DNA from: Promethearchaeota archaeon
GTDB lineage: Archaea > Asgardarchaeota > Lokiarchaeia > Sigyniarchaeales > SOKP01
DNA: 32,773 bases
NCBI GenBank assembly: GCA_016840545.1
Contig: JAEOSD010000011.1
Location: 1-32,773 of the forward strand
Reading direction: 5' to 3'
Made by a program: the position numbers and the translations under genes. Within the stretch, counting starts at the first letter, position 1, and each line of letters opens with the position of its first letter. This document shows, one piece after another, positions 759-23,217 of this stretch. The notes beneath the pieces were generated by a model. That model did not search any database, was not told the DNA's origin, and was given only the letters and a program-made list of their open reading frames with translations.

Positions 759-2333
759 TTACATGTAGGTAATAATTATATTATATTTCTTAATTTCTGA
801 TTCTATCTTCGCTTGCCCTAATGGTGTCAACGTTATAATATCGTTATTCTTTATTTTTAAAGATGTTAATTTAATATTTGGGTCTTTCATAGAAGGGATA
901 TACGGATTCCAATATAATTCTTTGTTGACTGGATTTGTAATCATCCATAATATTGGTTCTAATTCATGACCAATTATTCTCATGGCTTTAAAAATATATC
1001 CGATATCAGCATCAAATGGAACAACTATCTGAATGTTCTCCTCACCTTCTATTTTACCACATGCTAAACAATCTTCTCTTTTAACAATGTCAAGGTGATC
1101 AAATTGACCATACACGCCGTTATAATTAACATAGGGAGGATCCATTGGAGGTCCGACATTTCTACCATGTAATCTTAATAATATTTTTAGTGCTTCTTGT
1201 GATTGTATACTTGCTATTACTGAACTAACCGATTGGATCGCAGCAATTTTATTTCCAAGTATATTCTCCATTTCTTCAAACTTAAAATCTGGACCGAATG
1301 TTTCTGTGATATTATTTTTCCAATCTTGGATTTCTCCAGGGCTAAGAGTTTCCAATTTTTCAGGGGGAATATTCTCATTAAACACACGCTGTCTTAATGC
1401 TTCCAATTCTTCCTGTGCAATTTCTTTTAACTTCATAACGTCATCATCAACATTCATATCCGGTTTAAATCCATATTGTTTTTCAAAATTTACTTCAGCT
1501 TTTATCACACAATGATTTCTATTCCTAGGTAATCCTTTTAATGTACATGCAGCAACTAATTTATCATCAGCGGGAGGAATTGGTACAAGACATCGGTAAC
1601 AGGGAGTTAAATTTAAAACTTTCTCGGCATAATCCTTATCAAAATCTATCTCAACTTGTTTTTTAATGTGGTCTCTTATGGGTTCAATTTTTTCTCTTTT
1701 GATTTTCTCGATTAATTCCTCCAAGATTTCAATTTCTTTCAAAGCATCTAGATAATCAGGGTTTTCCACTTCCCACATCTTACTCTCCACAATTTTTTCA
1801 ATTTCAATATCTCTATTTTTATATTCAATTTCAGAATCCTCTGGAATAACAATTTGAACATGCCCCTCAAAACCAACTGTTCCCCCTTCAATCATTGGTT
1901 TTTTCAACCTAAGACATATCTTATTTAAATCTAATCGTGCGTTAAAATTATCTAGTGCAGCAATAATTACATCTGATTCTTCATACACAGACATGGGCAA
2001 CTTTTGTAGCTTTTCAAAGTAAAAATCCACTTCTAAATATGGATTCATTTCTTTTAAACGTTCTGCGGCCACCTCTGCTTTAGGGCGACCTTCATCTCCA
2101 GGTCTAAATAACATCTGCCGGGATAAGTTTGAAGTTTCTATAGTATCTAAATCTATTAAGATTAATTTTCCTATTCCCATTAAAGCAAAATCTTTAGCTA
2201 TTTCACACCCAAGAGCTCCAACCCCAACAATCATTATACATGAACTTTCAAGAGTTTCTTGGTCCCAACCGTCAATTAGTTGTTGCCTTGCATACATTCG
2301 AGATTTTAAAACATCCTCTTTATGTTCCATCAT
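759..2333 (-). CDS. E1-like ubiquitin-activating enzyme (UBA2/UBA3-type)
   Basis: A 524-residue ThiF/E1 protein expected to adenylate the C-terminus of a ubiquitin-like protein with ATP and pass it to its own cysteine. Visible in order: Rossmann loop VGVGALG (36-42); DLDTIETSNLSRQ (61-73) with the Asp, Asn, Arg and Gln of the ATP site; a Lys at 85; ALDNFNAR (126-133). A first zinc pair CYRC (245-248) and CTLKGLPRNRNHC (263-275) follow, where Cys263 matches the thioester cysteine of UBA2/UBA3 (CTxxxxPxxxxHC). Then comes the IAAIQSVSSVIASIQSQEALKIL helix (363-385) and a second zinc pair CLAC (422-425). The last ~90 residues look like a beta-grasp ubiquitin-fold domain, which in eukaryotic E1s binds the E2. 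Bacterial MoeB/ThiF proteins lack this arrangement. Unlike UBA2/3, an acidic helical stretch (~170-240) separates the adenylation core from the first CxxC. No E2, E3, ubiquitin or Rpn11 gene is present here. Two Met codons begin the protein; either may be used. Confidence 0.9.
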   Translation of the reverse strand: MMEHKEDVLKSRMYARQQLIDGWDQETLESSCIMIVGVGALGCEIAKDFALMGIGKLILIDLDTIETSNLSRQMLFRPGDEGRPKAEVAAERLKEMNPYLEVDFYFEKLQKLPMSVYEESDVIIAALDNFNARLDLNKICLRLKKPMIEGGTVGFEGHVQIVIPEDSEIEYKNRDIEIEKIVESKMWEVENPDYLDALKEIEILEELIEKIKREKIEPIRDHIKKQVEIDFDKDYAEKVLNLTPCYRCLVPIPPADDKLVAACTLKGLPRNRNHCVIKAEVNFEKQYGFKPDMNVDDDVMKLKEIAQEELEALRQRVFNENIPPEKLETLSPGEIQDWKNNITETFGPDFKFEEMENILGNKIAAIQSVSSVIASIQSQEALKILLRLHGRNVGPPMDPPYVNYNGVYGQFDHLDIVKREDCLACGKIEGEENIQIVVPFDADIGYIFKAMRIIGHELEPILWMITNPVNKELYWNPYIPSMKDPNIKLTSLKIKNNDIITLTPLGQAKIESEIKKYNIIITYM

Positions 2334-2442: not shown

Positions 2443-5400
2443 TTACTTCTTCTTCTTTTTAGTTAAATCCTTTAACATCTCTTTAATCTCATCAGCTTTT
2501 TCTTTATCCTTTGATAGCTGCATTTCTTCTCGTTTTTTAGCAGCATCCTCCTTAGAACTCTTAATTTCATTTATAAGTTCTTGCTTTAAATTGATTAATT
2601 CCTTCATATCTTTTCTAAATTTTTTTGCCGCTTTTTTCTCTATTTCTTTTTCTTCTTTTTGTATTAATTTCTGTTCTTTAATTTGTTTTTTGATTAAATG
2701 TGAAACTTCACCGGTCATATCGCTTAGTTCGCCAATAGTCTCTTGGATTTTTATCTCTTTTTCCTTTAATCGAATTTCTTCTAAGCGTTTTTTACTAACT
2801 AATTCTTCATAAATTTTTTGTATCCTTTTTTCTTCTTCTTTTACTTTTTCTTGGAGTAGTCTAGTATTTTCAATTTCTTTCTCAATGAATTTTGTTTGCT
2901 CATCCCAACCAATTTCGTTAAATTTTGCAATCGCTTGTTCAAAAAAATTATAAGCTTTTTCAAAATCGTGATGAATGGTTAACCGCTTTCCCTCATCTAT
3001 TAATTTTAACCCTTCATCCTTTAACTGATCGGCATATTGTTGTTGTTGTTTTAATTGGCTCCTCTTTTTCTGTTGTTCTCTTTTCCTTCTTAAATACTCT
3101 TCACGTCTCTGTCTAATTTCTTCTTGGAATTTCCCATATTCCCTTTGTCTTTGAATTCGTATTTCTTCTTCTCGTTTTTTCTTTTCTATTAAATTTTTCT
3201 TTTCTTGTTCTAAATCCTTTATTAAACTATTAATGCTATTTATTTCAGGTTCCCAACCAACTTTTTCAGCTAAAATGTTCCTTGCCTGATTATATAAAGA
3301 TATGGCATTATCATAATCTGGCATTTTCCTTATAAGGAAATTACCTGCTTTTTCTAAAAGAGAATAAGCAGCCTCTCTATTGCTTAATTGTTCTTGGGCC
3401 AACCTTTCTCGTTCTTGAAGTGCCATTTTTTGCGCTAATTGCTTTTCCTTTTCATATTTTCTTCTTTCTTCGATAAGAACTCTTAATTTCTTTTCTTCTT
3501 CAATTTTTGCTAGTTCTCTTTTCAATTTTGCTTGTTGTTGAACAAATTGCTGTTTTTTAAGATTTTCTACTTTAACGATCATCTCAGTGATAGAATCAGT
3601 TGGAAATTGTATTTCATTTAAAATTAACATGACTTGTCTATAAATATTTATTGCCTTATCATAATCCTTTGTTTTAATGAAATTTTCAGCGTCGTCTAAA
3701 ATTTTAAATGCTTCTTCTTTCTTTCCTTCCACTTTGGCTTTAACTTTTTCTATTTCTTGAATTTTAATTTTCTTTTCTTTTAGTCTTGCTTTTTCCCTAC
3801 TTATTTGCTCAGCTAACCTTTTATTAAATTTTTTCTGCTCATTCTCTTTTTGAATTTTGATCTCTAATTCCTTTTGTTTCTCTAATTCTTGCTCTCTTTT
3901 CTTATCAGTGACTTTTAAAATCATTTCTCGTACAGTTTCAGTTGGAAATTGAATTTCATTCAAAATTAATTCTGCACTATGATAAAAATCGAGTGCTTTA
4001 TCATATAGAGCTGCTTTTAAAAAGCTTTCAGCTTGGTCTAAAAGATCAAATGCATCTTCTTTTCTTTTGTCCATATATTCTTTAACAATTTCACGTTTTC
4101 TTAGCTCAATTTGTTTATTTTTTATTTTTTCTTTCTCAAAGTTCATATATTCTACAATTTTTTGCTGAAAAATTTTTTCCTCCTCCTCTTTCCTAATTTT
4201 TTGTTCTAGATCATAGTGTCTTGCTAAATCCTTTTCTCTTTTCTTCTCTTGGATATTTAAAATTAATTCTTTAATAGCATCCGTAGGGTACTGAATTTCA
4301 TTTAAAACTAATTCTGCTTGGTGATAAAGTTCAATTGCTTGCTCATACAATCCTATATTCACTAAATCCTCTGCTTTATCCATTAAATCAAACGCTTCGA
4401 TCTTAAGTGAATTTATTTGTTCCATTATTACTTCTTTCTTTTCAATTTCAATTTTCTTTGTTTTGAACCTTTCCCTTTCTCTCTTCATTTGTTCGGCAAG
4501 TTTCATTTCAAATTTTCTTTCTTCTTCAATTTGTTTTCTTGCTAGCTCTTTTTCTCTTAGCTTTGCTTTTTCCTTTTCTTCTTTTTTGAAATTAATTTCA
4601 TTAATTGTTTCTCGAATTAATTTTACATACCCGCCCTTCCAACCAATGCCGTCTAATAAATCTAGAGCTTGTTGGTATGTTGCCATAGCATCTTCAAAGC
4701 TTTCTTGATTCAGTAAAGAATCACCTTTATCAATTAACTTAAAGGCTTGTGCTTGTTTAATAAGCTGTTGAGCAGATAACTTTTTTTTTTTAACCAGTAT
4801 TTCTTGTTTTTGTTGCATTTTTTTAATTTCAATTTCTCTTTGGCGTTTTATTCGGTTAAAAAATTTAAAATCTTCCAATTCTTTTTTAACACCCTCCTCA
4901 ATGCGTTTTTGTTTCAGTAATTCCTTTTCCTTCTTTTTTATATCGATTTCCATGATAGCATTGTTTATAATTGGGATTTCCTCCTTCCATTGTATCTGTG
5001 CAAAAATATTAGCAACATTCCTATACGCCTCAATCGCTTCGTTAAATCTACCTAATGAAAGAAAATTTTGTGCCTTTTCAATCAGAATAAAAGCCTCACC
5101 TCTCTTTTGTTCACGATATTCTATTTCTTTATTTTTATCTCTTAATTTCAAAGCTTTTTGCTTAAACATTTCTTTTTGTAATTTTAGCTTATCTACAATA
5201 TTTATCTGAAATTCTTTTTCTCTTTTTTCTCTATCAAGCTTCTTTTGTAGCTCTCCTTGGTTCTTTAAAATTAGGTCCCTTTTTTGATTCTCGATTTCTA
5301 TTATAGCATTCCCTATAAATTCTACTTCATCATACCATTGAATTTCTGCAAAGATATTAGCTACAATATGATAATATTCAATTGCTTTATCAAAATTAGC

Positions 5401-7395
5401 TTCATTGATACATTTTTGAGCTTGATCTAGTATCTTGAAAGCATCTTCCTTCCTTTTCTGTCGATATTCTAACTCTTTATCTTTTTCTCTTATTTTTACT
5501 TCTTTTTTCCTCAGCTTCTCTCGTTCTGTTCTTAACTGAGTCGTAATTCTTTCATGAAAATCATATTCTTCTTTTTGTCTTTCAATTTCTCTTTGGATAT
5601 CTTTTTGTTTTTTTATTTCAATTTCGTTCTTCATATTTTCTAATTCTTTAATCGATGCTTCAATCAGAGGTACTTCTTCCTGCCATTGAATACTCGTAAA
5701 AATGTTAGCTGCATTTTGATAAGCTAAAATTGCATTATCTAAATTCCCCATTTTAATATACTTTTGGGCTTCATCTAGCGCTTTAAATGCGGAATCTTTA
5801 CGTTGCTCGATAAATCCTTGCTTATCCTTATCCAATTGGATTTCAATTTCTTTTTCTTTTAACTTTTTGCGTTCTCTTTCTAATAGAGTTGAAATTTGCT
5901 TCTGAAACTCTAATTCTTGTTTTGATTTTTCCTCTAATTTTTTCTGTGCTTCAAACTCCTTTTCATATTGTGTTTCTTTTAGTTTCTTCACACTATCGAT
6001 AGTGGTTTTAATTGTAGGAACATAAGATTCCCAACCTGATCCAAGATCAAGGAGTATTTCTAACGCATTTTGATATTCTTTAATTGCTCCATTAAAATCT
6101 TGATTTTGCTGGAGTTTATTATCAGCTTCATCTAAAAAGGTAAAAAATTGACTCTCTTTTTCCAATTGTGATTGTCTTTTTTGTACATATTCCCTATGTT
6201 GTACTTCAAAATCTTTTGCTGTCTGTATAACATGTTCTTTTTCTTTTAGAAACAACTGGTCTTGTATTTTTTCAAGATTATCTTCTCTCTTTTTTCTTAT
6301 ACCATCTAATTCTTCTTCATTATTTTGCTTTTCCTTTATATCATCTATAAAATTCACAACAGGTTGGATATATGAGTCCCATTCAATCGATTTAAATAAT
6401 TCTATAGCTCTTTGAAATTTCTCGATGGCTTTTGCGTATTGCTTTTCCCTTTCTAGTTTTTTAGCAAAATCGATCAAATTAAATGCTTCAATTTGTATAT
6501 CTTCCTCAGATTTTCTTTTATACTCAAATTCGACTACTTCAGAACTATCTGGTAACATTTGGGAATCAATTACAGAATCATGAATAGCATAAGATTCTTC
6601 AATTTGTTGTTTTGTTTCAAACCTTTCATGAATTTCTTTCTCTCTTATAAGCTTTTCAATTATAAATTGAAGATTTTGCGTCTGGTCCTTCCATCCGATT
6701 GAATTTAATAAATTAACTGCTTTTTTATAATTTTCAATTGCTGCATCAAATTTTTTATTTTTCTCATGAAATTTAGCATTATCAATAAATGCAAAAGCAT
6801 CATTTTGTACTTTCTCTTGTTTTGCTTTCATTTCTTGATATTTTCTAAGGTGTTCTGCCTTTTCAATACTCTTTATTTCACCAAAAGCATCCACTACCTG
6901 AGGTTTCCCTCCTATTTGCGAAGGTAGTTGTATAGAAATATCTTCATCACTCTTAGTAGTTTTTTGAGTTTCATTTTTATCTGTAAGAGCAGCAACTTTC
7001 ATTTTTAGATTTTGCAGTTGTGATTCAGACCACCCAGCTTGAGTTAATAATTTTATAGCAGAATTGTATCGCTCGATTGCATCCTGAAAACTTCCATCTG
7101 ATTCTAGTTCAGAAGCTCTGTCAATTATAACAAAAGCCTGATCCTGAAATTTTTCAATTTGAGCACTTAGTTGTTCATGCTGATATAATCTCTGTTCTTT
7201 TATGAAAGTCTTTAAACCCTCTATTCTATCATACAACTCACTAATTCTATGCATCATATAACCACTTTTTTTAAGATTATCGGCAGCTAATTGATAATTT
7301 TCAATAGCTTCCTGTGCCTTTCCTTCCGCTTCAAACCTCTGAGCTCTCTCTAAGTATTTGAGGGCTTCTTGAGCTAAATATTCATTATTCTGCAT
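2443..7395 (-). CDS. Giant coiled-coil protein with 14 TPR/MIT-like helical modules
   Basis: A 1650-residue, highly charged, cytosolic-looking protein with no signal peptide or membrane segment. Fourteen modules of ~50 residues follow a common pattern: a first helix like EAFKLLDQAE, a second like YDKAIELYHQAELIL, the tag (I/G)(Q/G)W or IQ(F/Y)PT, then a third amphipathic helix ending in I/V-x-x-I. The first two helices fit a TPR hairpin (small residues at the packing positions) and, with the third, also resemble the three-helix MIT domain. Modules start near residues 10, 86, 199, 303, 416, 535, 651, 767, 883, 1000, 1114, 1228, 1341 and 1460. Between them are Lys/Glu/Arg/Gln-rich coiled coils, and the C-terminus ends in a Lys tract. 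Most likely a scaffold or filament-like adaptor; no catalytic motif is seen. The E1 gene follows 109 nt downstream on the same strand. I do not recognise a named family for the whole protein. Confidence 0.85.
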   Translation of the reverse strand: MQNNEYLAQEALKYLERAQRFEAEGKAQEAIENYQLAADNLKKSGYMMHRISELYDRIEGLKTFIKEQRLYQHEQLSAQIEKFQDQAFVIIDRASELESDGSFQDAIERYNSAIKLLTQAGWSESQLQNLKMKVAALTDKNETQKTTKSDEDISIQLPSQIGGKPQVVDAFGEIKSIEKAEHLRKYQEMKAKQEKVQNDAFAFIDNAKFHEKNKKFDAAIENYKKAVNLLNSIGWKDQTQNLQFIIEKLIREKEIHERFETKQQIEESYAIHDSVIDSQMLPDSSEVVEFEYKRKSEEDIQIEAFNLIDFAKKLEREKQYAKAIEKFQRAIELFKSIEWDSYIQPVVNFIDDIKEKQNNEEELDGIRKKREDNLEKIQDQLFLKEKEHVIQTAKDFEVQHREYVQKRQSQLEKESQFFTFLDEADNKLQQNQDFNGAIKEYQNALEILLDLGSGWESYVPTIKTTIDSVKKLKETQYEKEFEAQKKLEEKSKQELEFQKQISTLLERERKKLKEKEIEIQLDKDKQGFIEQRKDSAFKALDEAQKYIKMGNLDNAILAYQNAANIFTSIQWQEEVPLIEASIKELENMKNEIEIKKQKDIQREIERQKEEYDFHERITTQLRTEREKLRKKEVKIREKDKELEYRQKRKEDAFKILDQAQKCINEANFDKAIEYYHIVANIFAEIQWYDEVEFIGNAIIEIENQKRDLILKNQGELQKKLDREKREKEFQINIVDKLKLQKEMFKQKALKLRDKNKEIEYREQKRGEAFILIEKAQNFLSLGRFNEAIEAYRNVANIFAQIQWKEEIPIINNAIMEIDIKKKEKELLKQKRIEEGVKKELEDFKFFNRIKRQREIEIKKMQQKQEILVKKKKLSAQQLIKQAQAFKLIDKGDSLLNQESFEDAMATYQQALDLLDGIGWKGGYVKLIRETINEINFKKEEKEKAKLREKELARKQIEEERKFEMKLAEQMKRERERFKTKKIEIEKKEVIMEQINSLKIEAFDLMDKAEDLVNIGLYEQAIELYHQAELVLNEIQYPTDAIKELILNIQEKKREKDLARHYDLEQKIRKEEEEKIFQQKIVEYMNFEKEKIKNKQIELRKREIVKEYMDKRKEDAFDLLDQAESFLKAALYDKALDFYHSAELILNEIQFPTETVREMILKVTDKKREQELEKQKELEIKIQKENEQKKFNKRLAEQISREKARLKEKKIKIQEIEKVKAKVEGKKEEAFKILDDAENFIKTKDYDKAINIYRQVMLILNEIQFPTDSITEMIVKVENLKKQQFVQQQAKLKRELAKIEEEKKLRVLIEERRKYEKEKQLAQKMALQERERLAQEQLSNREAAYSLLEKAGNFLIRKMPDYDNAISLYNQARNILAEKVGWEPEINSINSLIKDLEQEKKNLIEKKKREEEIRIQRQREYGKFQEEIRQRREEYLRRKREQQKKRSQLKQQQQYADQLKDEGLKLIDEGKRLTIHHDFEKAYNFFEQAIAKFNEIGWDEQTKFIEKEIENTRLLQEKVKEEEKRIQKIYEELVSKKRLEEIRLKEKEIKIQETIGELSDMTGEVSHLIKKQIKEQKLIQKEEKEIEKKAAKKFRKDMKELINLKQELINEIKSSKEDAAKKREEMQLSKDKEKADEIKEMLKDLTKKKKK
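2866..7368 (-). repeat. 14 in-frame helical-module repeats, about 345 nt period
   Basis: Protein-level tandem repeat inside the giant coiled-coil gene. Successive module starts are 76, 113, 104, 113, 119, 116, 116, 116, 117, 114, 114, 113 and 119 residues apart. Modules 6-8 share an ANIF-x-x-IQW core and modules 10-12 share LNEIQ(F/Y)PT, so two triplets look like later local duplications. The repeat is clear in protein but diverged in DNA. Confidence 0.85.
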
Positions 7396-9871: not shown

Positions 9872-10399
9872 ATGTCAAGTTTTAAATTAAAAGTATTGCT
9901 TACCGGAGCCGCGGCCGTTGGAAAAACGAGTTTGGTCCAAAGGTTTATAAAGAATCGATTTGCGGCAAACTATAAATTAACTGTCGGAGTAGACATCTTG
10001 ACCAAAGACGTAGAATTCAGATCGGGAGAAATAGCTACCTTAAGTATTTGGGACATCGGAGGACAGCAGCGTTTTGAATTTATTAGATCAACATTTTATA
10101 AGGGAGCTGCTGGAGCGCTATTAGTTTTTGATTTAACAAGAGAACAAACATACACAGAAACAAGGAAATGGCTTACTGAAATACGCCAATTTGCTGGAGA
10201 AAATATCCCATTTGTATTAATTGGGAATAAGGCAGACTTACTTGAGGACGTTGGAATGGTGATTGATCGGAATGAAGCCAGTTCTTTTGCGGGAAAAGAA
10301 AAAAGCATGTACATTGAAACTTCAGCTAAAACGGGTATTAATGTTGATCAAGCGTTTACAGAATTAACTAGAAGAATTATTGATTCCCGAACGCAATAA
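9872..10399 (+). CDS. Rab/Ras-like small GTPase
   Basis: A single-domain GTPase of 175 residues. All G motifs are visible: G1 GAAAVGKT (12-19), a switch I Thr (37), G3 WDIGGQQRF (60-68) with the catalytic-type Gln65, G4 NKAD (119-122) and G5 ETSAK (149-153). DIGGQ plus ETSAK and RFIKNRF point to the Rab/Ras/Rag-like branch rather than Arf or MglA. There is no C-terminal cysteine, so lipid anchoring by prenylation is not expected; membrane binding, if any, needs a partner. Proteins of this kind are abundant in Asgard archaea. The gene stands alone between divergent or convergent neighbours. By eye it is richer in G+C than its surroundings, especially at the P-loop codons (gccgcggccgttgg). That may mean high expression or different ancestry. 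The family is certain; the cellular role is unknown. Confidence 0.93.
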   Translation: MSSFKLKVLLTGAAAVGKTSLVQRFIKNRFAANYKLTVGVDILTKDVEFRSGEIATLSIWDIGGQQRFEFIRSTFYKGAAGALLVFDLTREQTYTETRKWLTEIRQFAGENIPFVLIGNKADLLEDVGMVIDRNEASSFAGKEKSMYIETSAKTGINVDQAFTELTRRIIDSRTQ

Positions 10400-12026: not shown

Positions 12027-13958
12027 TTAATCGAATTTTTTTACTAGTTCTTCTAATTCATGAATTTGGCTATTAATATTTTTCTCAATTTCTCTTAATT
12101 TATTTTTCTTATCCTCAAGTTCTTTAGTAGTAATCTCCCCTGTTAATTCTTTCATATCAAATTCTAATGACATTTTTGAAATATTTGCCCTCTTAATTTT
12201 TAAATCCATCAAGGATTTTTCAAGATCGCCCTTCTGTTGAATGTCTAATGTACTAGGTTTGACTTGTGCAGTTTTTTGTTGTATGGGTGTAATAGGTATA
12301 TCTGGAACTGGCTTTTTAGGAGGTGTTACTGGTTTTTTTTCTGGTTTAATTAACATTGTTGGAACGACTGGTACAGGAGTATGTGGTTGTTCAGTTGGTT
12401 GAATCTCAGGTGGTTTCTGAGTAACCGGAGTTGGTTTTAATTTTGGTGGGGTTACTTGTTTTATTGATTTTGGTTTGATTAATTTAGTTGGAGCAACAGC
12501 TTTAGGTTCCTTTTTTACTTGTTGATTTTCAACTTGAGCATATGGAGATATTGTTAACTTTTCCTTTGCATCCTTAGGAACTGTTGTTATAGTTTTAGGT
12601 CTTTCTTTTACCATAAAATCTTCCGGATTTAGATTTAAACCCACATCTAGGGGGGGTGATTCAGGTTTTTGGAGACTTTCTGGTTCAGCTATAGGTTCTT
12701 TTGGTGGAGGAGGGGGTGGGAAAGCTTTTTTTTCTGGAGTTTCAGGAACGCTCTCTTCTTCAATTATTTTAACAAGTTTCTTTTGTACTTTAGGTTCTAT
12801 GGGGTCTGCTGATTTTCCTGGAATTTTTGGTTTCTCAAGTGCTATAGGTTCCTCTGGAGGTTTTCGTAGATCAGGAGATGGCGGAGGTGGAATCTCTTCT
12901 GATTTAGCTTTTTTAGGCTCGGTAATCGCTGGAGAGGTTGGTTGTGGAGGTGACATTTGCTGAAGCATGTTTTTAATTTTTTGAGATTTTTCGAAAAATT
13001 CTCTTCCTAATGAATCATCACCTAATTCAATACATAAATCACTAATTTCCTCAAAAATTTTTGCTGCTTTTCCAAACTCAGCATTCTCTAATGCTTTTGT
13101 GGCTTCTTCTATATGAGTATCTCTTTTCAATAAAGGTTGCAATAATGGTGATACTTCTGCACTCATTTCTAAAATATCTGCAATAATTGTTATCATTTTA
13201 TCTCTGTTAACAGGATCTTTTGCAATCATTGAATAAGTCTTTAAACCTAAAATTTTTTCAATTTGATCAGGCTTCATTGCAGTCTGTAGATCTTGTTTAT
13301 TCCCTATTACAGCGGTATGAGCATGGGGTGCTTGTTCTTTTATTAATTCCAAGAAAAACTTACTTTTTTCTACATTTTCTAAACTAGAATCTGTAATTAA
13401 AAGGACAGCATCGCTACCTTTGATAAAATTATTCCAAAGATAACTAAATTGCTCTTGACCTGCAAAATCCCAGAGGTGAAAATGTAATTTTCCAATCTTA
13501 ATTGTAGCAATATCACCAGTAATTGTTGGAATATGCTGCATAGGAATTTCTTCTGCTTTTATAAGCCTTGTTATTGTTGTTTTACCAACTCCAGAAAATC
13601 CTACCAGTGATATTTTTGGTCTTAAATTTTTATGAATTGCATCAATGGTAGGATCAAAAACTTCAAAGGTTTTATCATCATATTTGTGTTTAATAATATC
13701 TTCAAATAAATTTAAAAACTGTTTTTTACATTTTATTAATTCTTTTTTAATATTATCAAAATTATCAGTTAATCCTGTAACAAACAAAAACATTACTTCT
13801 AATTTTGTTTCGGTGATATATGAAATTCTATATTTATAATAATCATGATAGTTTACTTTATCTGTATTTTTAACAAAAGCATCTTTCATCAAGTCAACAA
13901 CTAGTGCATTAAATACTTCTGTTTTTAGCGCTTTCCCAAAATGTCTATAATAGATCAA
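12027..13958 (-). CDS. Longin-like/Arf-like GTPase fusion with Pro-rich tether and coiled coil
   Basis: A 643-residue multidomain protein. Residues ~1-110 have the strand/helix order of a longin-like domain (IYYRHFGK, then KYRISYI, EVMFLFVTGLTD and a long helix pair). The GTPase domain (~113-265) has G1 GFSGVGKTT (120-128), a switch I Thr145, G3 WDFAGQEQF (163-171) with Gln168, and G4 NKQD (220-223); G5 is weak. A helical hairpin (~282-330, ATKALENAEFGKAAKIFEE) is TPR-like. Then comes a ~250-residue low-complexity Pro/Lys/Glu linker, and finally a coiled coil (~590-643). The start codon is TTG; a TATA box sits 53-62 nt upstream. It follows a roadblock-like gene by 76 nt on the same strand. 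Longin and roadblock folds are typical partners of eukaryotic trafficking GTPases, so a membrane-associated or signalling switch is likely. The GTPase call is certain; the longin call is by pattern only. Confidence 0.88.
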   Translation of the reverse strand: MIYYRHFGKALKTEVFNALVVDLMKDAFVKNTDKVNYHDYYKYRISYITETKLEVMFLFVTGLTDNFDNIKKELIKCKKQFLNLFEDIIKHKYDDKTFEVFDPTIDAIHKNLRPKISLVGFSGVGKTTITRLIKAEEIPMQHIPTITGDIATIKIGKLHFHLWDFAGQEQFSYLWNNFIKGSDAVLLITDSSLENVEKSKFFLELIKEQAPHAHTAVIGNKQDLQTAMKPDQIEKILGLKTYSMIAKDPVNRDKMITIIADILEMSAEVSPLLQPLLKRDTHIEEATKALENAEFGKAAKIFEEISDLCIELGDDSLGREFFEKSQKIKNMLQQMSPPQPTSPAITEPKKAKSEEIPPPPSPDLRKPPEEPIALEKPKIPGKSADPIEPKVQKKLVKIIEEESVPETPEKKAFPPPPPPKEPIAEPESLQKPESPPLDVGLNLNPEDFMVKERPKTITTVPKDAKEKLTISPYAQVENQQVKKEPKAVAPTKLIKPKSIKQVTPPKLKPTPVTQKPPEIQPTEQPHTPVPVVPTMLIKPEKKPVTPPKKPVPDIPITPIQQKTAQVKPSTLDIQQKGDLEKSLMDLKIKRANISKMSLEFDMKELTGEITTKELEDKKNKLREIEKNINSQIHELEELVKKFD

Positions 13959-14005
13959 ATCACTGCCCTTATAAATGTATACTTGTCTTAGAATCGTGAA
14001 TCACC

Positions 14006-14020
14006 ATAAAATTATATATA
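14006..14020 (-). promoter_or_regulatory. TATA-like element of the longin-GTPase gene
   Basis: On the minus strand TATATATAATTTTAT lies in the gap after the roadblock-like gene. Its nearest part is about 50 nt from the TTG start at 13958. It suggests the GTPase has its own promoter even if the two genes are also cotranscribed. Confidence 0.45.
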
Positions 14021-14034
14021 AGAACTCCAATTTT

Positions 14035-14526
14035 TTAACTTGAAATAAATTTAACAAGATCTTTTATAATTGAATATTTTTTTTCTTTAAATTTTTCATG
14101 TTTGATAGTATCTTCAATTTTTTTAATCTCCTTTGAAAAATCAAAAATTGAAAACTCATTTATCTCTTGTTTTTTAGAAGTTTCACCTAATTTTTTTAAA
14201 AACACACTAATACTTGGCATAAGTTTTGCTAAATTAACGTCTAAATCTAATTTTGAAATTAAGATTAACTCTTCATTGAATGTAAATAAATAGTTATAAT
14301 CTTGAGCTTCTAAAGCAAAAGAATTTATTTTTTTCAAATTCAAATCTTTAGCAATATCTTGAGAATTAGCTATAAGCGATAGAATTTTTTGGGGTATCAC
14401 TTTTCCCTTAGAAAATTCTTTAATTGCCGTTCCAAGTATTATACCATATCGATTTGCTATTGCACATTCTGAATTTAGTTCTGTTTTTAATTGTGAGATT
14501 ATATCATCGTAGTTAATTTGTTTCAT
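14035..14526 (-). CDS. Roadblock/LC7-like protein
   Basis: A 163-residue protein whose first ~115 residues follow the roadblock/LC7 pattern: a start helix (YDDIISQLKTEL), strand CAIANRYGIILGTAI with a mid-strand Gly, a long helix (VIPQKILSLIANSQDIAKDL), strands FALEAQDYNYLFTFNEELILISKL, and a closing helix. The remaining ~45 residues form a charged helical tail not usual in the ~110-120-residue family core. Roadblock proteins (MglB, LAMTOR/Ragulator subunits, dynein light chain LC7) act as GTPase regulators or platforms. The next gene on the same strand, 76 nt downstream, is the longin-GTPase fusion, making it the obvious candidate partner. The start is an ATG and the gene is divergent from the UPF0280 gene. 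Confidence in the fold is moderate because the match is by pattern, not by strict motif. Confidence 0.6.
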   Translation of the reverse strand: MKQINYDDIISQLKTELNSECAIANRYGIILGTAIKEFSKGKVIPQKILSLIANSQDIAKDLNLKKINSFALEAQDYNYLFTFNEELILISKLDLDVNLAKLMPSISVFLKKLGETSKKQEINEFSIFDFSKEIKKIEDTIKHEKFKEKKYSIIKDLVKFISS

Positions 14527-17788: not shown

Positions 17789-18751
17789 TTATATATTAAT
17801 AGCATTTTTTCTTTTATACCATTCTAAATAATCTTTTAATCCACTTTCCTGATCATATTTCGGTTTGAAATTTAATAATTCTTTAGCTTTAGAGATATCA
17901 GCATAACTATTATCAATATCACCCGGGCGTGGGTCTGTGTAATTGATTTTCAGATTCTGTTTTTTTGTAATTTTTAGCATCAAATTTGCCAATTCAGTTA
18001 AATTTATAGGGCAACCGGCACCAATATTAAACAATTGTCCTGAAAAATCTTTTTCTACCACTAATAGGTTAGCTTGAATAATATCTTTAACATAAGTGAA
18101 GTCTCTTGAATTTTTGCCATCTCCAAATATAATTAAATCCTCATCTCTTATAATCCTTCCTAACCAAATCGCAATAACTCCACTATAAGGAGAATCCCTC
18201 TGCCTAGGTCCGTACACATTAAAATATCTTAAAATATTTGTTCTTAATCCGTAAATAAGTCTAAAAACCTCCATATACGCTTCACATGTTAATTTACTGA
18301 TACCATATGGAGATATTGGCTTTAATTTCATGTCTTCATCAAGCGGTAAGGTTGAAATATTACCATATACCGAAGAACTGGATGCGAATATTATTTTATC
18401 AATATCATTTTTTCTTGCAATGTTTAATATATTTAAAGTACCATTTATATTGACATTATTACAAGAATCTGGCATTAATATTGATTGAGGTACACTAGTA
18501 AATGCTGCTTGATGATAAATTATATCAATCTCTTTAGAAATTTCCAATAAATAATTAAAATCTCTAATATCGGTTTTATAAAATCGAAAATTTTTATTTT
18601 TTAAAGCCCATTCTAAGTTATCTAATCTCCCATTATATAGGTTATCAATTCCAACTACATTTGCTCCCAATTTAAGTAATTCATCTGTTAGATTACTTCC
18701 TATAAATCCAGCGGCTCCGGTGACTAAAATATTCTTTCCTTCAACAAGCAT
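17789..18751 (-). CDS. NAD-dependent UDP-sugar 4-epimerase (GalE/WbpP-like extended SDR)
   Basis: A 320-residue extended short-chain dehydrogenase. The NAD-binding loop is TGAAGFIG (11-18), the active-site Ser region SSSSVYG (124-130), and the catalytic pair Y149-x3-K153 (YGISK). NVYGPRQRDSPYSGVIAIW is typical of enzymes that epimerise UDP-hexose or UDP-N-acetylhexosamine at C4. It should feed UDP-Gal, UDP-GalNAc or an acidic derivative to the transferases nearby. It is on the minus strand upstream of the membrane glycosyltransferase and divergent from a second epimerase of a different subtype. The SDR class is certain; the sugar is not. Confidence 0.88.
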   Translation of the reverse strand: MLVEGKNILVTGAAGFIGSNLTDELLKLGANVVGIDNLYNGRLDNLEWALKNKNFRFYKTDIRDFNYLLEISKEIDIIYHQAAFTSVPQSILMPDSCNNVNINGTLNILNIARKNDIDKIIFASSSSVYGNISTLPLDEDMKLKPISPYGISKLTCEAYMEVFRLIYGLRTNILRYFNVYGPRQRDSPYSGVIAIWLGRIIRDEDLIIFGDGKNSRDFTYVKDIIQANLLVVEKDFSGQLFNIGAGCPINLTELANLMLKITKKQNLKINYTDPRPGDIDNSYADISKAKELLNFKPKYDQESGLKDYLEWYKRKNAINI

Positions 18752-18952
18752 AATCGAACAATTAATATTATAGCATATAATTCAAAAACGCAAAAAAAAT
18801 TTTAGCAATGTTTTTTTAAATTTTTCATTATTATTTAACTTACGATTTTTCTCTTGTTTAAAATCAAATAAAGAAAAGAAAACAATCCTTATTATTCTTA
18901 AAATTAAAATTTATTTTATAAATCTAACTATAAATCATAAAACTGATTTTCT

Positions 18953-19939
18953 ATGATAACTGAAAGCAGAATTTTAATCACAGGAGCGGCAGGCTTTATT
19001 GGATCACATTTAACTGAAGTTTTATTAAAAAATAATAATTATTTGATACTTCTAGATAATTTTAACGAATACTATAAAGGAAAAGAAGAAAGATTAAGAG
19101 ACATAATTAAAAACTATAAAAGTGAAGAAAATTATAAGTTAATAAAAGGAAATCTTTTAGATACTTCAATTTATAAACAAATCGATAAAGATATTGATTA
19201 TATTTTTCATTTAGCTGCTCAAGCAGGCGTAAGATATTCTATCAATAATCCAATTGAAGTTATAAACAATAATGTAATTAGTACCATTAAAATATATGAA
19301 TTTGCTTTAAATACGGAAAAACTTAAAAAATTGATATATGCTTCATCATCATCCGTATATGGAAATCCAAGTTATACGCCTTGTGATGAGGGTCATCAAA
19401 AAAATCCAATATCTCCGTATGCTTTATCAAAATTGACGGGAGAGATATATGCAGATTATTATTATCGTGAATTTGGAATACCTATTACGTCTTTAAGGTT
19501 TTATACGGTGTATGGTCCAAGAGGAAGACCTGATATGGCGATATATACGTTCTATAATTTAATGTTCCAAAATAAAGAAATAAGCATTTATGGAAATGGT
19601 GAACAACTTAGAGATTTTACCTATGTATCTGATATTATAGATGGACTAATTTTAGCAGGAGAAAAAGATGAATCTAAAGGTGAAGTCTTCAATCTAGGAT
19701 ATTCTAATCCGATAAGCGTGAATCAGTTAGTTGATAAAATGTATAAAATAACAAATAAAACTAAGAAGATTAAATATTTACAAAAACAAAAAGGGGATGT
19801 TAATATAACTCATTCAAATATAAATAAAGCTAAGAGGATATTGAATTTTAGACCAAAAATAGATATAGATGAAGGTTTAACTTTACAATATCATTGGCAA
19901 CTGGCTTTTTTTAATGGATCAAAGAAATATAGCTTATAA
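18953..19939 (+). CDS. UDP-glucuronate 4-epimerase-like extended SDR
   Basis: A 328-residue NAD-dependent epimerase. Visible are GAAGFIGSH (11-19), LAAQAGVRYSINNP (87-100), SSSSVYGN (131-138), the catalytic Y156-x3-K160 (YALSK), and RFYTVYGPRGRPDMA (182-196). The last motif and AGVRYS are characteristic of UDP-glucuronate 4-epimerases (UDP-GlcA to UDP-GalA). That suggests an acidic sugar in the glycan made here. It is divergent from the other epimerase across 201 nt; TTTTATAAAT at 18913-18922 may be its TATA box, close enough for a short leader. Specificity for the acid sugar is inferred from these motifs. Confidence 0.85.
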   Translation: MITESRILITGAAGFIGSHLTEVLLKNNNYLILLDNFNEYYKGKEERLRDIIKNYKSEENYKLIKGNLLDTSIYKQIDKDIDYIFHLAAQAGVRYSINNPIEVINNNVISTIKIYEFALNTEKLKKLIYASSSSVYGNPSYTPCDEGHQKNPISPYALSKLTGEIYADYYYREFGIPITSLRFYTVYGPRGRPDMAIYTFYNLMFQNKEISIYGNGEQLRDFTYVSDIIDGLILAGEKDESKGEVFNLGYSNPISVNQLVDKMYKITNKTKKIKYLQKQKGDVNITHSNINKAKRILNFRPKIDIDEGLTLQYHWQLAFFNGSKKYSL

Positions 19940-20111
19940 GTCTAAATATTCAGTTTTATAGAAGATAGTTAGGAAAAAATTCTGAAATTTTTAATAATCA
20001 ATTCTATAGATAATAAAAATAATTATATTCATATGTGTCATATTAAAACATAGATATTTATTTCTTAAAAAACAATAAAATAACCCAAATTTAAAAAAAA
20101 GAGCTTATTTC

Positions 20112-21074
20112 TTGATTATTAGAAGTATAAAGGGAAACAAATATATACAAAAACCCTCTCAAAAGCCTACAATTGCAAACCTATTTCAAGAATTGTATAA
20201 ATACATTGAAAATTTTAAAAATTTTGAAGATCAGGTAATAATTTCCATAGTTATACCTTTATATAATGAGGAAAAGACAATTAGGAAAGTTCTAGATTGT
20301 CTCCCCAACCATAATTCAATTGAAATTATCGTGGTTAATGATGATTCTACTGATAATAGTTTACACGAAATTGAAATAGTTCAATCCTATAGAAATATCA
20401 AAGTAATAAATCACAAAATCAATAGGGGATATGGAGCAGCTATAATGACAGGAATTAAACAAGCTAAGGGAAGAGTCATTGTTTCAATGGATTCTGATGG
20501 ACAACATAGCCCTGATGACCTTTTCACATTGGTAAAACCTATATTGGATGAGAGGGCAGATTATACAATTGGATCTAGATATCTTGGAACTTATTTTTAT
20601 CAATTACCTTTATCAACGCGATTAGGAGAATTATTTGTTGAAAAATTAATTCGAATCTTTTTTGGAAAAAAGATTATGAATAATCAAAATGGTTTTCGAG
20701 CTTTTAATAGAAAAATCTTACCAATATTTAATGATCTTAAATATGATGGATATGCGTTTTGTACGGAACAAATACTTAAAACTTCATTAGAAGGATATAA
20801 AATTAAAGAATGTCCAATTAAAGTCTATGATCGGAAGTATGGAACTTCTCATATTATTTTATCAAAATTAGCTATAAACATTGTCACCTTATTTTTTAAT
20901 TATATTATTAAGAAGATTAGAATAACTGTTATAAAGCGAGATAAATCTGGAACATTAAAAATTTATGAAAAATCCCTCAAGAGAAAAAAAGAATTACTTA
21001 ATTTAAAATTCAAAAAAGAATACACTTATTTGAATTCAATTATTTTTCTTGAACGAGGATATACAATTGCTTAG
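20112..21074 (+). CDS. GT2 polyprenyl-phosphate glycosyltransferase (DPM1-like), first of tandem pair
   Basis: A 320-residue GT-A-fold enzyme expected to transfer a sugar from a nucleotide sugar to dolichyl phosphate at the inner membrane face. IVIPLYNEEKTI (46-57), VNDDSTD (75-81), GYGAAIMTG (106-114) and the metal-binding DSDGQH (127-132) are the dolichyl-phosphate mannosyl/glucosyltransferase motifs. NNQNGFRAFNRK and CTEQILK follow. A hydrophobic stretch near the C-terminus (INIVTLFFNYII) could dip into the membrane but there is no full transmembrane domain. The start is uncertain: an in-frame stop upstream and no ATG before the core leave TTG at 20112 as the likely start. Its last ~60 residues are longer and more basic than in its downstream paralogue. 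It probably supplies dolichol-linked monosaccharide to the GT-C enzyme or the glycan assembly line. Confidence 0.88.
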   Translation: MIIRSIKGNKYIQKPSQKPTIANLFQELYKYIENFKNFEDQVIISIVIPLYNEEKTIRKVLDCLPNHNSIEIIVVNDDSTDNSLHEIEIVQSYRNIKVINHKINRGYGAAIMTGIKQAKGRVIVSMDSDGQHSPDDLFTLVKPILDERADYTIGSRYLGTYFYQLPLSTRLGELFVEKLIRIFFGKKIMNNQNGFRAFNRKILPIFNDLKYDGYAFCTEQILKTSLEGYKIKECPIKVYDRKYGTSHIILSKLAINIVTLFFNYIIKKIRITVIKRDKSGTLKIYEKSLKRKKELLNLKFKKEYTYLNSIIFLERGYTIA

Positions 21075-21160
21075 TAAGATTTATAATCTTAAGCTTTCCT
21101 CTAAAATTGTTAAATTTTAACTATTTTTAGCTATTTAATTAAATTTTTATTAAATTACCA

Positions 21161-21168
21161 TTTATATT
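21161..21168 (+). promoter_or_regulatory. TATA box of the second GT2 gene
   Basis: TTTATATT ends 55 nt before the TTG start at 21223, matching the spacing found for other genes in the window. It supports this TTG as the true start and suggests the two GT2 paralogues can be transcribed separately. Confidence 0.5.
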
Positions 21169-21222
21169 ATTATAATACTTAATATTTCAATAGAATTGGA
21201 ATTTTAGAATTAAGGTTTTAAT

Positions 21223-22065
21223 TTGAAAACTGCATCTAGTACTAATGCTACAAATATTGCTACAGAAAGGAAAATAATTAAAACCCGAAACAATTTTCAT
21301 AAATTTAATGATTTAATTAATTATCTTGAGAATCATAAAACTAACAGCGACACTGTGCTTCTTTCAATAATTCTTCCAATGTATAATGAAGAAAAAACAA
21401 TTCGTGCTGTATTAGAAAGTTTACCTAAGTATGATTTAATTGAGATAATTGTTATCGATGATCATTCTACAGATAATAGTATTAAAGAAATTGGGAAAGT
21501 AAATTCCCCAGAAAGAATAAATATATTACAACATAAGGAAAACAAAGGTTATGGGGGCGCTATAACTACGGGAATGAAACATGCAAAAGGAAAAGTTGTT
21601 GTCTGTATGGATAGCGATGGCCAACACAGCGCTGATGATCTATTCGATTTAATAAAACCAATTATCGAAGGTAAATCTGATATAGTAATTGGTTCAAGAT
21701 ATTTAGGTGCTTATAATTATCGTTTACCTTTATTAAGACAATTTGGAGAAATTCTGGCAGAGAAAATAATCAGAATATTATTCAACTTAAAAATAAAAAA
21801 TAATCAAAATGGTTTCCGTGCCTACAATAGGAAAGTTCTTAAAGTATTAAAAAATGCGAGATACCTTGATTATACTTATTGTACAGAGCAAATTTTAAAA
21901 GCTTCGATTTATGGCTTTAAAATTAAAGAATCCCCCATAAAAGTCTATGGTCGTCAACATGGTGCCTCAAAAATGACTATTATACGACTTGCACTTAATA
22001 TCTTTTCATGTATGTTAATATATTACTTTAAAAAAATCAAAATTAATTCTACAAATAAGCAATAA
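21223..22065 (+). CDS. GT2 polyprenyl-phosphate glycosyltransferase (DPM1-like), second of tandem pair
   Basis: A 280-residue paralogue of the preceding gene, alignable without large gaps from IILPMYNEEKTI (49-60) to the C-terminal basic helix. It keeps IDDHSTD (78-84), GYGGAITTG (109-117), DSDGQH (130-135), NNQNGFRAYNRK and YCTEQILK. It starts with TTG (TATA box 55 nt upstream), and the first ~40 residues are polar, Thr/Asn-rich and unlike the paralogue. Tandem copies of this enzyme may make different dolichyl-phosphate sugars. The next gene begins 81 nt later on the same strand and may share the transcript. Confidence 0.88.
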   Translation: MKTASSTNATNIATERKIIKTRNNFHKFNDLINYLENHKTNSDTVLLSIILPMYNEEKTIRAVLESLPKYDLIEIIVIDDHSTDNSIKEIGKVNSPERINILQHKENKGYGGAITTGMKHAKGKVVVCMDSDGQHSADDLFDLIKPIIEGKSDIVIGSRYLGAYNYRLPLLRQFGEILAEKIIRILFNLKIKNNQNGFRAYNRKVLKVLKNARYLDYTYCTEQILKASIYGFKIKESPIKVYGRQHGASKMTIIRLALNIFSCMLIYYFKKIKINSTNKQ

Positions 22066-22146
22066 GAAATTTTTCTCAAATTTTTTGAGATTTTTAATGC
22101 TAATAGAATCATAAAATTTTTGATTTGCTACTCCTATAATAATCCC

Positions 22147-23217
22147 ATGAAAAAAATAATTACCTGTATTGGAATTCGTCCAGATATTATACGTTTATCT
22201 CAAATAATCATGAAATTAGATAAATATTTTGAAAATATTCTTGTCGATAGTGGTCAGCATTACGATTATAATTTAAATAAAATCTTCTATGATCAACTAG
22301 GTGTCCGGATACCCGAATATAACCTTGATATTAAAAGTGGGACCCATGCCACTCAAGTAGCAAGACTTATGATTGAATTTGAGAAGGTGGTAATGCATTT
22401 AAATCCTGAATTTGTTATTGTTTTAGGAGATAATAATAGCAGTCTAGGGTTTGCGATAGCCACTTCTAAATTGAATATTCCCCTAGTCCACATAGAAGCG
22501 GGTATGAGAAGTAAAAACTGGCTTATGCCAGAAGAAAAAAATCGTAAAATAATCGATCATTTGGCTGATATGAATCTCTGTTATTTACCTGAACATAAAG
22601 AAAATCTAATAAGGGAAGGATTAAATCCAAGAAGATGTTGGGTTATAGGTAATCCTATTTTAGAAGTTGTAAACGCAGTAGAAACGACATTTAAACAAGA
22701 TAAACCGTTTTACCTAGTCACATGTCATAGAGCTGAAAATACGGAGATGAAAGAAAACCTCGAAACTATATTAAAATTTTTAGGAGAGTTATATGAAAGA
22801 AAAAATGTAGAAATAAAATTCATTCTTATGCCAAAAACTAAGAATATGATGGAAAAATATGGCTTAAAGTTTCCAAAAGGTATTAATCCGATTCCTCCTC
22901 AAGGTTTTATAGAATTCCTTGGTATGGAAAAAGAAGCACAGTTAGTTTTAACTGATAGTGGGACCGTTGTTGAAGAGTGTGCCATTCTAGGAACCCCATG
23001 TATGACAATAAGAGAAAGTACTGAAAGGATTGATTTAATTGAACTTGGTGTAAACGTATTAACTGGTATAGATAATAATCAAATGCTTGATTCAGCAGAA
23101 TTAGCATTATCTCGTAAAGTTGAACCCGTATCTCATTATGGTAAAAATATATCTGATAAAATTTGTAATATATTGATAGGAAATTCTTTAAACTTCTATA
23201 AAAACTATGAAAGGTAG
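22147..23217 (+). CDS. UDP-GlcNAc 2-epimerase-like enzyme (WecB/MnaA/CapG family)
   Basis: A 356-residue protein of the non-hydrolysing UDP-N-acetylglucosamine 2-epimerase family, which makes UDP-ManNAc or a related 2-epimer. I chose the ATG at 22147, not the in-frame TTG at 22120, because MKKIITCIGIRPDII aligns with the family start (MKxLxxxGTRPE). Motifs: DSGQHYD (34-40), PLVHIEAGMRS (112-122), PEEKNRKIIDHLAD (128-141), TCHRAEN (192-198), LTDSGT (268-273) and RESTER (289-294). Two positions differ from the standard: IGIRPD instead of GTRPE, and GDNNSS (94-99) where GDT is common. That leans towards the subgroup acting on modified amino sugars (WbpI or CapG). It lies in a run with the reductase/epimerase genes that follow on the opposite strand. 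Confidence 0.88.
   Translation: MKKIITCIGIRPDIIRLSQIIMKLDKYFENILVDSGQHYDYNLNKIFYDQLGVRIPEYNLDIKSGTHATQVARLMIEFEKVVMHLNPEFVIVLGDNNSSLGFAIATSKLNIPLVHIEAGMRSKNWLMPEEKNRKIIDHLADMNLCYLPEHKENLIREGLNPRRCWVIGNPILEVVNAVETTFKQDKPFYLVTCHRAENTEMKENLETILKFLGELYERKNVEIKFILMPKTKNMMEKYGLKFPKGINPIPPQGFIEFLGMEKEAQLVLTDSGTVVEECAILGTPCMTIRESTERIDLIELGVNVLTGIDNNQMLDSAELALSRKVEPVSHYGKNISDKICNILIGNSLNFYKNYER

Follow-up and report, generated by a model that had tools for sequence, protein, structure and literature searches.

A conserved gene pair of a roadblock-fold protein and a longin–Arf-like GTPase with a putative near-cognate start codon in one order of Lokiarchaeia

The window (the whole stretch of DNA analysed, 32,773 nucleotides) belongs to contig C212 of a metagenome-assembled genome of 2.88 Mb, and its nearest named relatives are Candidatus Lokiarchaeota records. 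Two adjoining open reading frames on the minus strand are considered here, a small roadblock gene and, downstream of it across a spacer of 40 nt, a gene for a multidomain GTPase. Their features, with the grounds for each assignment, are as follows.

14035–14526, minus strand: roadblock (RB/LC7-fold) protein of 163 aa, first gene of the pair (ORF, profile, AF2 model)
14001–14005, minus strand: GGTGA Shine-Dalgarno sequence, containing an in-frame TGA, at a fixed distance before the ATT start
12027–13994, minus strand: longin–Arf-like GTPase of 655 aa with an ATT start (homologue comparison; the TTG at 13958 is internal)
13626–13994, minus strand: longin domain, residues 1–123 (AF2 element order, AP-2 sigma profile match, Pfam matches of relatives)
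13155–13622, minus strand: Arf-like G domain, residues 125–280 (Pfam Arf, fold matches, motif table)
12957–13139, minus strand: three-helix segment 3' of the G domain, residues 286–346 (AF2 model; conserved in the homologue alignment)
12243–12956, minus strand: Pro-rich linker, predicted to be disordered, residues 347–584 (pLDDT about 30; length varies among homologues)
12525–12641, minus strand: linear motif GLxLNPEDFMVKxRPK...VPKDAKxKL within the linker, residues 452–490 (conserved in the homologue alignment)
12033–12242, minus strand: C-terminal helical hairpin or coiled coil, residues 585–654 (pLDDT about 87–92)

The small upstream protein escapes the standard roadblock model. Pfam found no roadblock match and nothing reliable for the single 163-aa sequence, PF03259 matched none of 21 members of the family, and the window gene was missed in the genome search as well. 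Since a looser family profile of 21 relatives reached solved archaeal Roadblock/LC7 chains in the PDB (7yh1, E 0.0012; 9jue, E 0.026), the PF03259 miss is a matter of divergence in sequence and not in fold. With a mean pLDDT of 76.8 and about 90 in the core, the AF2 model shows the roadblock topology α-ββ-α-βββ-α, with two extra C-terminal helices, and its best structural match was the MK-D1 protein Roadblock3 (9jue; Z 13.9 over 115 residues, 2.5 Å), followed by MglB (Z 13.5), to which the protein is 12% identical in sequence. CodY GAF domains and profilins were also among the fold matches of the model, scoring lower than the best roadblock chains; a CodY GAF-like Pfam match of the protein (E 0.015) fell under the cut-off and was rejected. 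From the profile match, the order of elements and the Z-scores, the predicted fold of the 163-aa protein is that of a roadblock.

The GTPase opens with a domain that the AF2 model resolves into the element order β-β-α-β-β-β-α-α (residues 1–123, elements over 4–123, block pLDDT about 76–89), which is the order of the longin superfamily. The longin domain of the window GTPase itself gave no match to the Pfam models of this superfamily. A profile combining orthologues and paralogues with two more fusions of the genome aligned with AP-2 sigma over most of its length (E 0.04), and the longin domains of relatives matched Fuz_longin_1 (4.8e-5), Clat_adaptor_s (2e-4), Longin (0.017) and Sybindin (0.033); these sequence matches, individually weak, concur on the longin superfamily. 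The arrangement claimed in the earlier note, a roadblock-type protein directly upstream of a GTPase that itself carries a longin-like domain, was thus recovered in all its parts, with both frames in place on the same strand and both folds predicted.

The G domain is the only part of the GTPase gene detected by Pfam (Arf, 5.8e-22), and its bit scores place it closest to Arf (78.4, against 53.1 for Ras and 25.5 for Gtr1_RagA). Its structural matches were Arf, Arl and Rab proteins with Z of about 15–16, the Asgard protein GerdArfR1 (8oum) among them; they come from a fold search with the whole GTPase, in which the G domain dominated the matches, and the G-domain portion of the AF2 model is of low confidence. 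The motif table retains the catalytic Gln. Since the G1–G5 motifs (GFSGVGKTT, PTIT, WDFAGQE, NKQD and YSMIA) are unchanged in 12 inspected orthologues spanning two families, the protein should, judged by these motifs for GTP binding and hydrolysis, be a functional GTPase.

The remainder of the protein is a long tail, in which the disordered Pro-rich linker accounts for about 240 residues. The linear motif of the linker is absent from the shorter f2 proteins (L107, L108). No convincing family was found for the C-terminal coiled coil, and the assignments tried for it, SHOCT and CdvA, were dropped, their matches being too weak and inconsistent. In two loci, L080 (G018; 3867–6018) and L053 (G009), the tail forms a separate downstream ORF, with the split inside the Pro-rich linker, which reflects either gene fission or an assembly frameshift. 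The source genome also has a second, shorter longin–Arf-like fusion, without a tail, at L002 1351–2226 (G000:C51).

The ORF finder had called the GTPase gene from a TTG at 13958 (12027..13958). This start was ruled out, because conserved coding continues upstream of it towards an in-frame stop and includes longin strand 1, (I/M)LRQVYIYKG; the coding reaches an ATT at 13994–13992, three codons past the in-frame TGA. Certain homologues have ATG or GTG exactly at the position of this ATT, which also argues against the TTG. Among 38 distinct loci (at least 55% identity) the codon at this position was ATT in 20, ATA in 10, ATC in 5, ATG in 2 and ACG in 1; a GGTG or GGAG ended exactly 7 nt 5' of it in 33 of the 38, and an in-frame stop stood three codons 5' of it in 35 of the 38. 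In the wider set of homologues, ATT, ATA, ATC or ACG was found in 40/51 and ATG or GTG in 10/51, the codon of the last member not being given, and a Shine-Dalgarno-like motif preceded the gene in 44/51. The start codons listed are ATG or one base away from it.

Over codons 2–35 of the GTPase, the synonymous/nonsynonymous ratio was 0.95 in frame and fell to 0.12 and 0.08 when the frame was shifted, by which translation in another frame from the GTG within GGTGA was rejected. In the neighbouring families tested, no general use of non-AUG starts in these genomes was seen; the GTPase genes of family f1 begin with ATT, ATA, ATC or ACG, and neighbouring genes in the same loci with ATG, GTG or TTG. 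The roadblock gene of the window starts with ATG and has no Shine-Dalgarno sequence; its homologues have ATG in 37/39 cases and a Shine-Dalgarno-like motif in only 1/39 (absent in 38/39). At about position 10001 of L102 (G034) the roadblock gene apparently begins with ATT, and the first canonical start there is far inside the domain. The near-cognate start of the GTPase is independent of the roadblock partner, as G075 (L128), which lacks the roadblock gene, retains it. ATT is likewise the start codon of a close paralogue of the GTPase in g6 (L110).

In bacteria, infC has an AUU-type start behind a strong Shine-Dalgarno sequence, and the likeness to the present case is that a single gene keeps a near-cognate start of the AUU class in such a setting; here, in contrast, it is an archaeal GTPase gene, second in its putative operon, and ATT, ATA, ATC and ACG interchange. 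We know of no link between the near-cognate start of the GTPase and initiation-factor autoregulation. If real, this start would make the GTPase gene an unusual archaeal example of conserved initiation at a non-AUG codon, and no such near-cognate translational control of an archaeal gene family was reported in the literature searched. It also has a practical side: when a gene caller accepts only ATG, GTG and TTG, many of these GTPases lose 12 to about 40 residues, longin strand 1 among them, and N-termini clipped in this way would conceal the longin domain in annotated proteomes.

The distribution of the pair was followed with roadblock profile searches of 83 genomes of the class and 227 Asgard genomes of the phylum. 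The roadblock gene was found in 51 of the 83, and in these same 51 and no others among the 227, all of them in families f1, f2 and f3 of one Lokiarchaeia order; the pair is present in Prometheoarchaeum-related genomes too (L107, L108). In 50 of these 51 genomes the next gene downstream, on the same strand, is the GTPase gene, the case of G024 lying at a contig edge. In the remaining genome, G084 (L130), an N-terminal remnant of the GTPase (MLRQIYIYRKGQILYYRK) stands directly behind the roadblock stop and soon breaks off, and an intact, ATG-started GTPase is found on another contig; G084 was for that reason not taken as a separated pair. Because the two genes adjoin on the same strand in 50/51 genomes, with a remnant in the other, their conserved linkage exceeds chance, and the co-conservation implied by the earlier proposal holds. 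The GTPase gene is present in G075 with no roadblock gene nearby or elsewhere in that genome (81% complete). The apparent lack of the roadblock gene in G076 was unusable as a true loss, as a run of N passes through the GTPase in the scaffold.

In f1 the pair is embedded in a conserved block of genes for a membrane protein, a UPF0280-type protein, an aspartate kinase-type protein, a Rab-like GTPase and RACo; f2 and f3 have other genes at its flanks, and the pair alone is constant. The pairing is also specific, since a search found 48 GTPases in the source genome and none of its 13 other Pfam-detected roadblock genes has one of them within 2 kb. This agrees with the statement that MK-D1 GTPase genes are generally not in operons with RB genes (PMC10933270), and the same study called it difficult to match Lokiarchaeia GTPases to roadblock or longin proteins by genome layout. 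There are many tail-less longin–Arf paralogues without a roadblock neighbour, and on the tree of the 51 GTPases the label "paired" has to change three times; the simple reading is one early gain of pairing followed by loss in the paralogue groups and in G075. The protein distances of the roadblock proteins and GTPases correlate with r 0.87, a value that common descent alone could produce.

In our judgement the chances stand evenly for a reading in which the roadblock protein is a dedicated platform or regulator of the longin–Arf GTPase, the two genes are an operon encoding one switch, and the tail is its effector arm. The operon part is supported by the first gene lacking and the second having a Shine-Dalgarno sequence, since an archaeal operon would be expected to pair a leaderless first gene with a second gene dependent on such a sequence, and from this we infer co-transcription. 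The dedicated partnership is supported by the adjacency, which is kept in f2 and f3 though the flanking genes change. Against it were counted G075, the tail-less paralogues without a roadblock neighbour, and the low confidence of the G-domain model; since G075 keeps the GTPase without a roadblock gene, the partner may not always be needed.

Mechanistically, the roadblock protein would probably be a homodimer, like solved roadblock proteins, and the dimer would serve as the platform or regulator of the GTPase. The longin domain is a candidate contact module because it sits where the membrane-binding helix of Arf would be; it would probably bind the roadblock dimer or another longin domain and so position the G domain. 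The flexible tail, with its one conserved motif and coiled-coil end, is probably the effector arm. A near-cognate start after a strong GGTGA would plausibly hold the GTPase at a lower level than its platform. The fuller proposal, that this is a lineage-specific Lokiarchaeia switch in which the roadblock platform controls the longin–Arf GTPase in trans and the GTPase level is set by conserved AUU/AUA/AUC/ACG initiation behind the fixed-distance GGTGA, is offered tentatively, with more doubt than confidence.

Comparison with known systems defines what kind of partnership could be expected. As in MglB–MglA (and CvnB–CvnD), a roadblock gene is coupled to a small-GTPase gene, here in 50/51 genomes. 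It is possible, and in our view unlikely, that the roadblock dimer acts as MglB does, binding the switch regions of the G domain as a GAP and/or GEF, and that the longin domain serves just as a module for a membrane or a partner. In its favour, MglB ranks second among the structural matches (Z 13.5), coupling of MglA and MglB genes is common (PMC4316618), and the catalytic Gln is retained; set against this, the roadblock protein is only 12% identical to MglB, and MglA is a single-domain protein whose G3 is reported to have Thr in place of the conserved Asp (PMC3000849), whereas the GTPase here is multidomain, with a longin domain, a tail and a WDFAGQE motif that keeps the G3 Asp.

In Ragulator–Rag and EGO–Gtr a roadblock platform is likewise combined with small GTPases, but Rag and Gtr carry a roadblock domain C-terminal to the G domain, where the present protein has helices, a disordered linker and a coiled coil; furthermore, no second Rag-type GTPase gene adjoins the pair, and the Gtr1_RagA score is far below that of Arf (25.5 against 78.4 bits). 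The comparability with MglB–MglA and Ragulator–Rag asserted in the earlier note therefore stands as a functional analogy but does not extend to an Arf-like G domain that keeps its G3 Asp and is followed by no Rag-type C-terminal roadblock. The closest likeness of the G domain is to Asgard ArfR and eukaryotic Arf: it scores best with Arf, has GerdArfR1 (8oum) among its fold matches, and reads DFAGQ at G3. It differs from them in having the longin domain at residues 1–123 and no N-terminal amphipathic membrane-switch helix before the G domain.

A mixed platform, in which the GTPase's longin domain and the roadblock protein form a pair, or their dimers stack, to give a TRAPP- or Ragulator-like scaffold that tethers the GTPase and is not a GAP, seems to us slightly less probable still than an MglB-like action. 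Longin and roadblock domains have a common core fold and are known to form dimers in complexes (PMC10933270), and the additional module conserved in the GTPase partner is the longin domain, but paralogues that have no roadblock gene beside them carry longin domains of this type as well. That the two are mere neighbours, co-inherited under a shared promoter with no physical or regulatory partnership, is improbable, as their adjacency outlasts changes of the other neighbours (50/51 genomes, three families) and small GTPases are known to have roadblock proteins as partners, although one genome (G075) does have the GTPase without the roadblock gene. The evidence sets this last reading only moderately apart from the other three, and the dedicated platform or regulator, which we infer to bind the GTPase directly, remains our preferred one.

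Longin–Arf fusions as such are not new. By 2016, fusion of a longin domain to a lokiarchaeal Arf-like GTPase had been noted in five cases (PMC4917890, which cites an earlier re-analysis of the Lokiarchaeum genome), and among the MK-D1 GTPases that have been modelled, 26 occur in combination with roadblock or longin domains (PMC10933270). The window GTPase is of that kind, with the same N-terminal order of longin and then Arf-like G domain (PMC4917890, PMC10933270); its adjoining roadblock gene, its long Pro-rich tail, which bears the motif and the coiled coil, and its non-AUG start are not described for these fusions in the literature searched. A catalogue of MglA-type GTPase genes coupled to MglB/roadblock genes likewise exists (PMC4316618). 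The open literature searched held no account of a conserved operon of RB and longin–Arf genes, of its restriction to one order, or of the non-AUG start. Of the earlier suggestion that the switch was "not described as such", therefore, the part concerning the conserved operon stands and the part concerning longin–Arf fusions and MglB coupling does not; it is the conserved combination of these two known elements, with the non-AUG start, that appears new.

The "ancestral-type" label given to the switch in the earlier note is not supported: the partner occurs in only 51/227 Asgard genomes, and because these are confined to three families of one order, the pair is on present evidence not ancestral to Asgard archaea. 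Its interest is that it gives one assigned GTPase–roadblock couple among the tens of small GTPases and the many loose roadblock and longin proteins found in Lokiarchaeia. All of this, from folds and intact GTPase motifs to conserved adjacency and start-codon pattern, was read from sequences and predicted models.

Several other genes of the window deserve mention. MIT domains are ESCRT/Vps4-type modules, and one (Pfam 1.8e-25) is followed by TPR repeats in a 1650-aa protein encoded at 2443–7395 (minus strand), which is kept in the f1 block. At 759–2333 (minus strand) a 524-aa E1-like (ThiF) protein is encoded; a large insert is likely in it, because the Pfam match spans residues 19–422 and only 238 model positions. 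A single-domain Rab/Ras-like GTPase (Pfam Ras 6.6e-49) at 9872–10399 (plus strand), also in the f1 block, is convergent to the pair. Finally, nucleotide-sugar epimerase/dehydratase genes and two family-2 glycosyltransferase genes at 17789–23217 make up a probable surface-glycan cluster.
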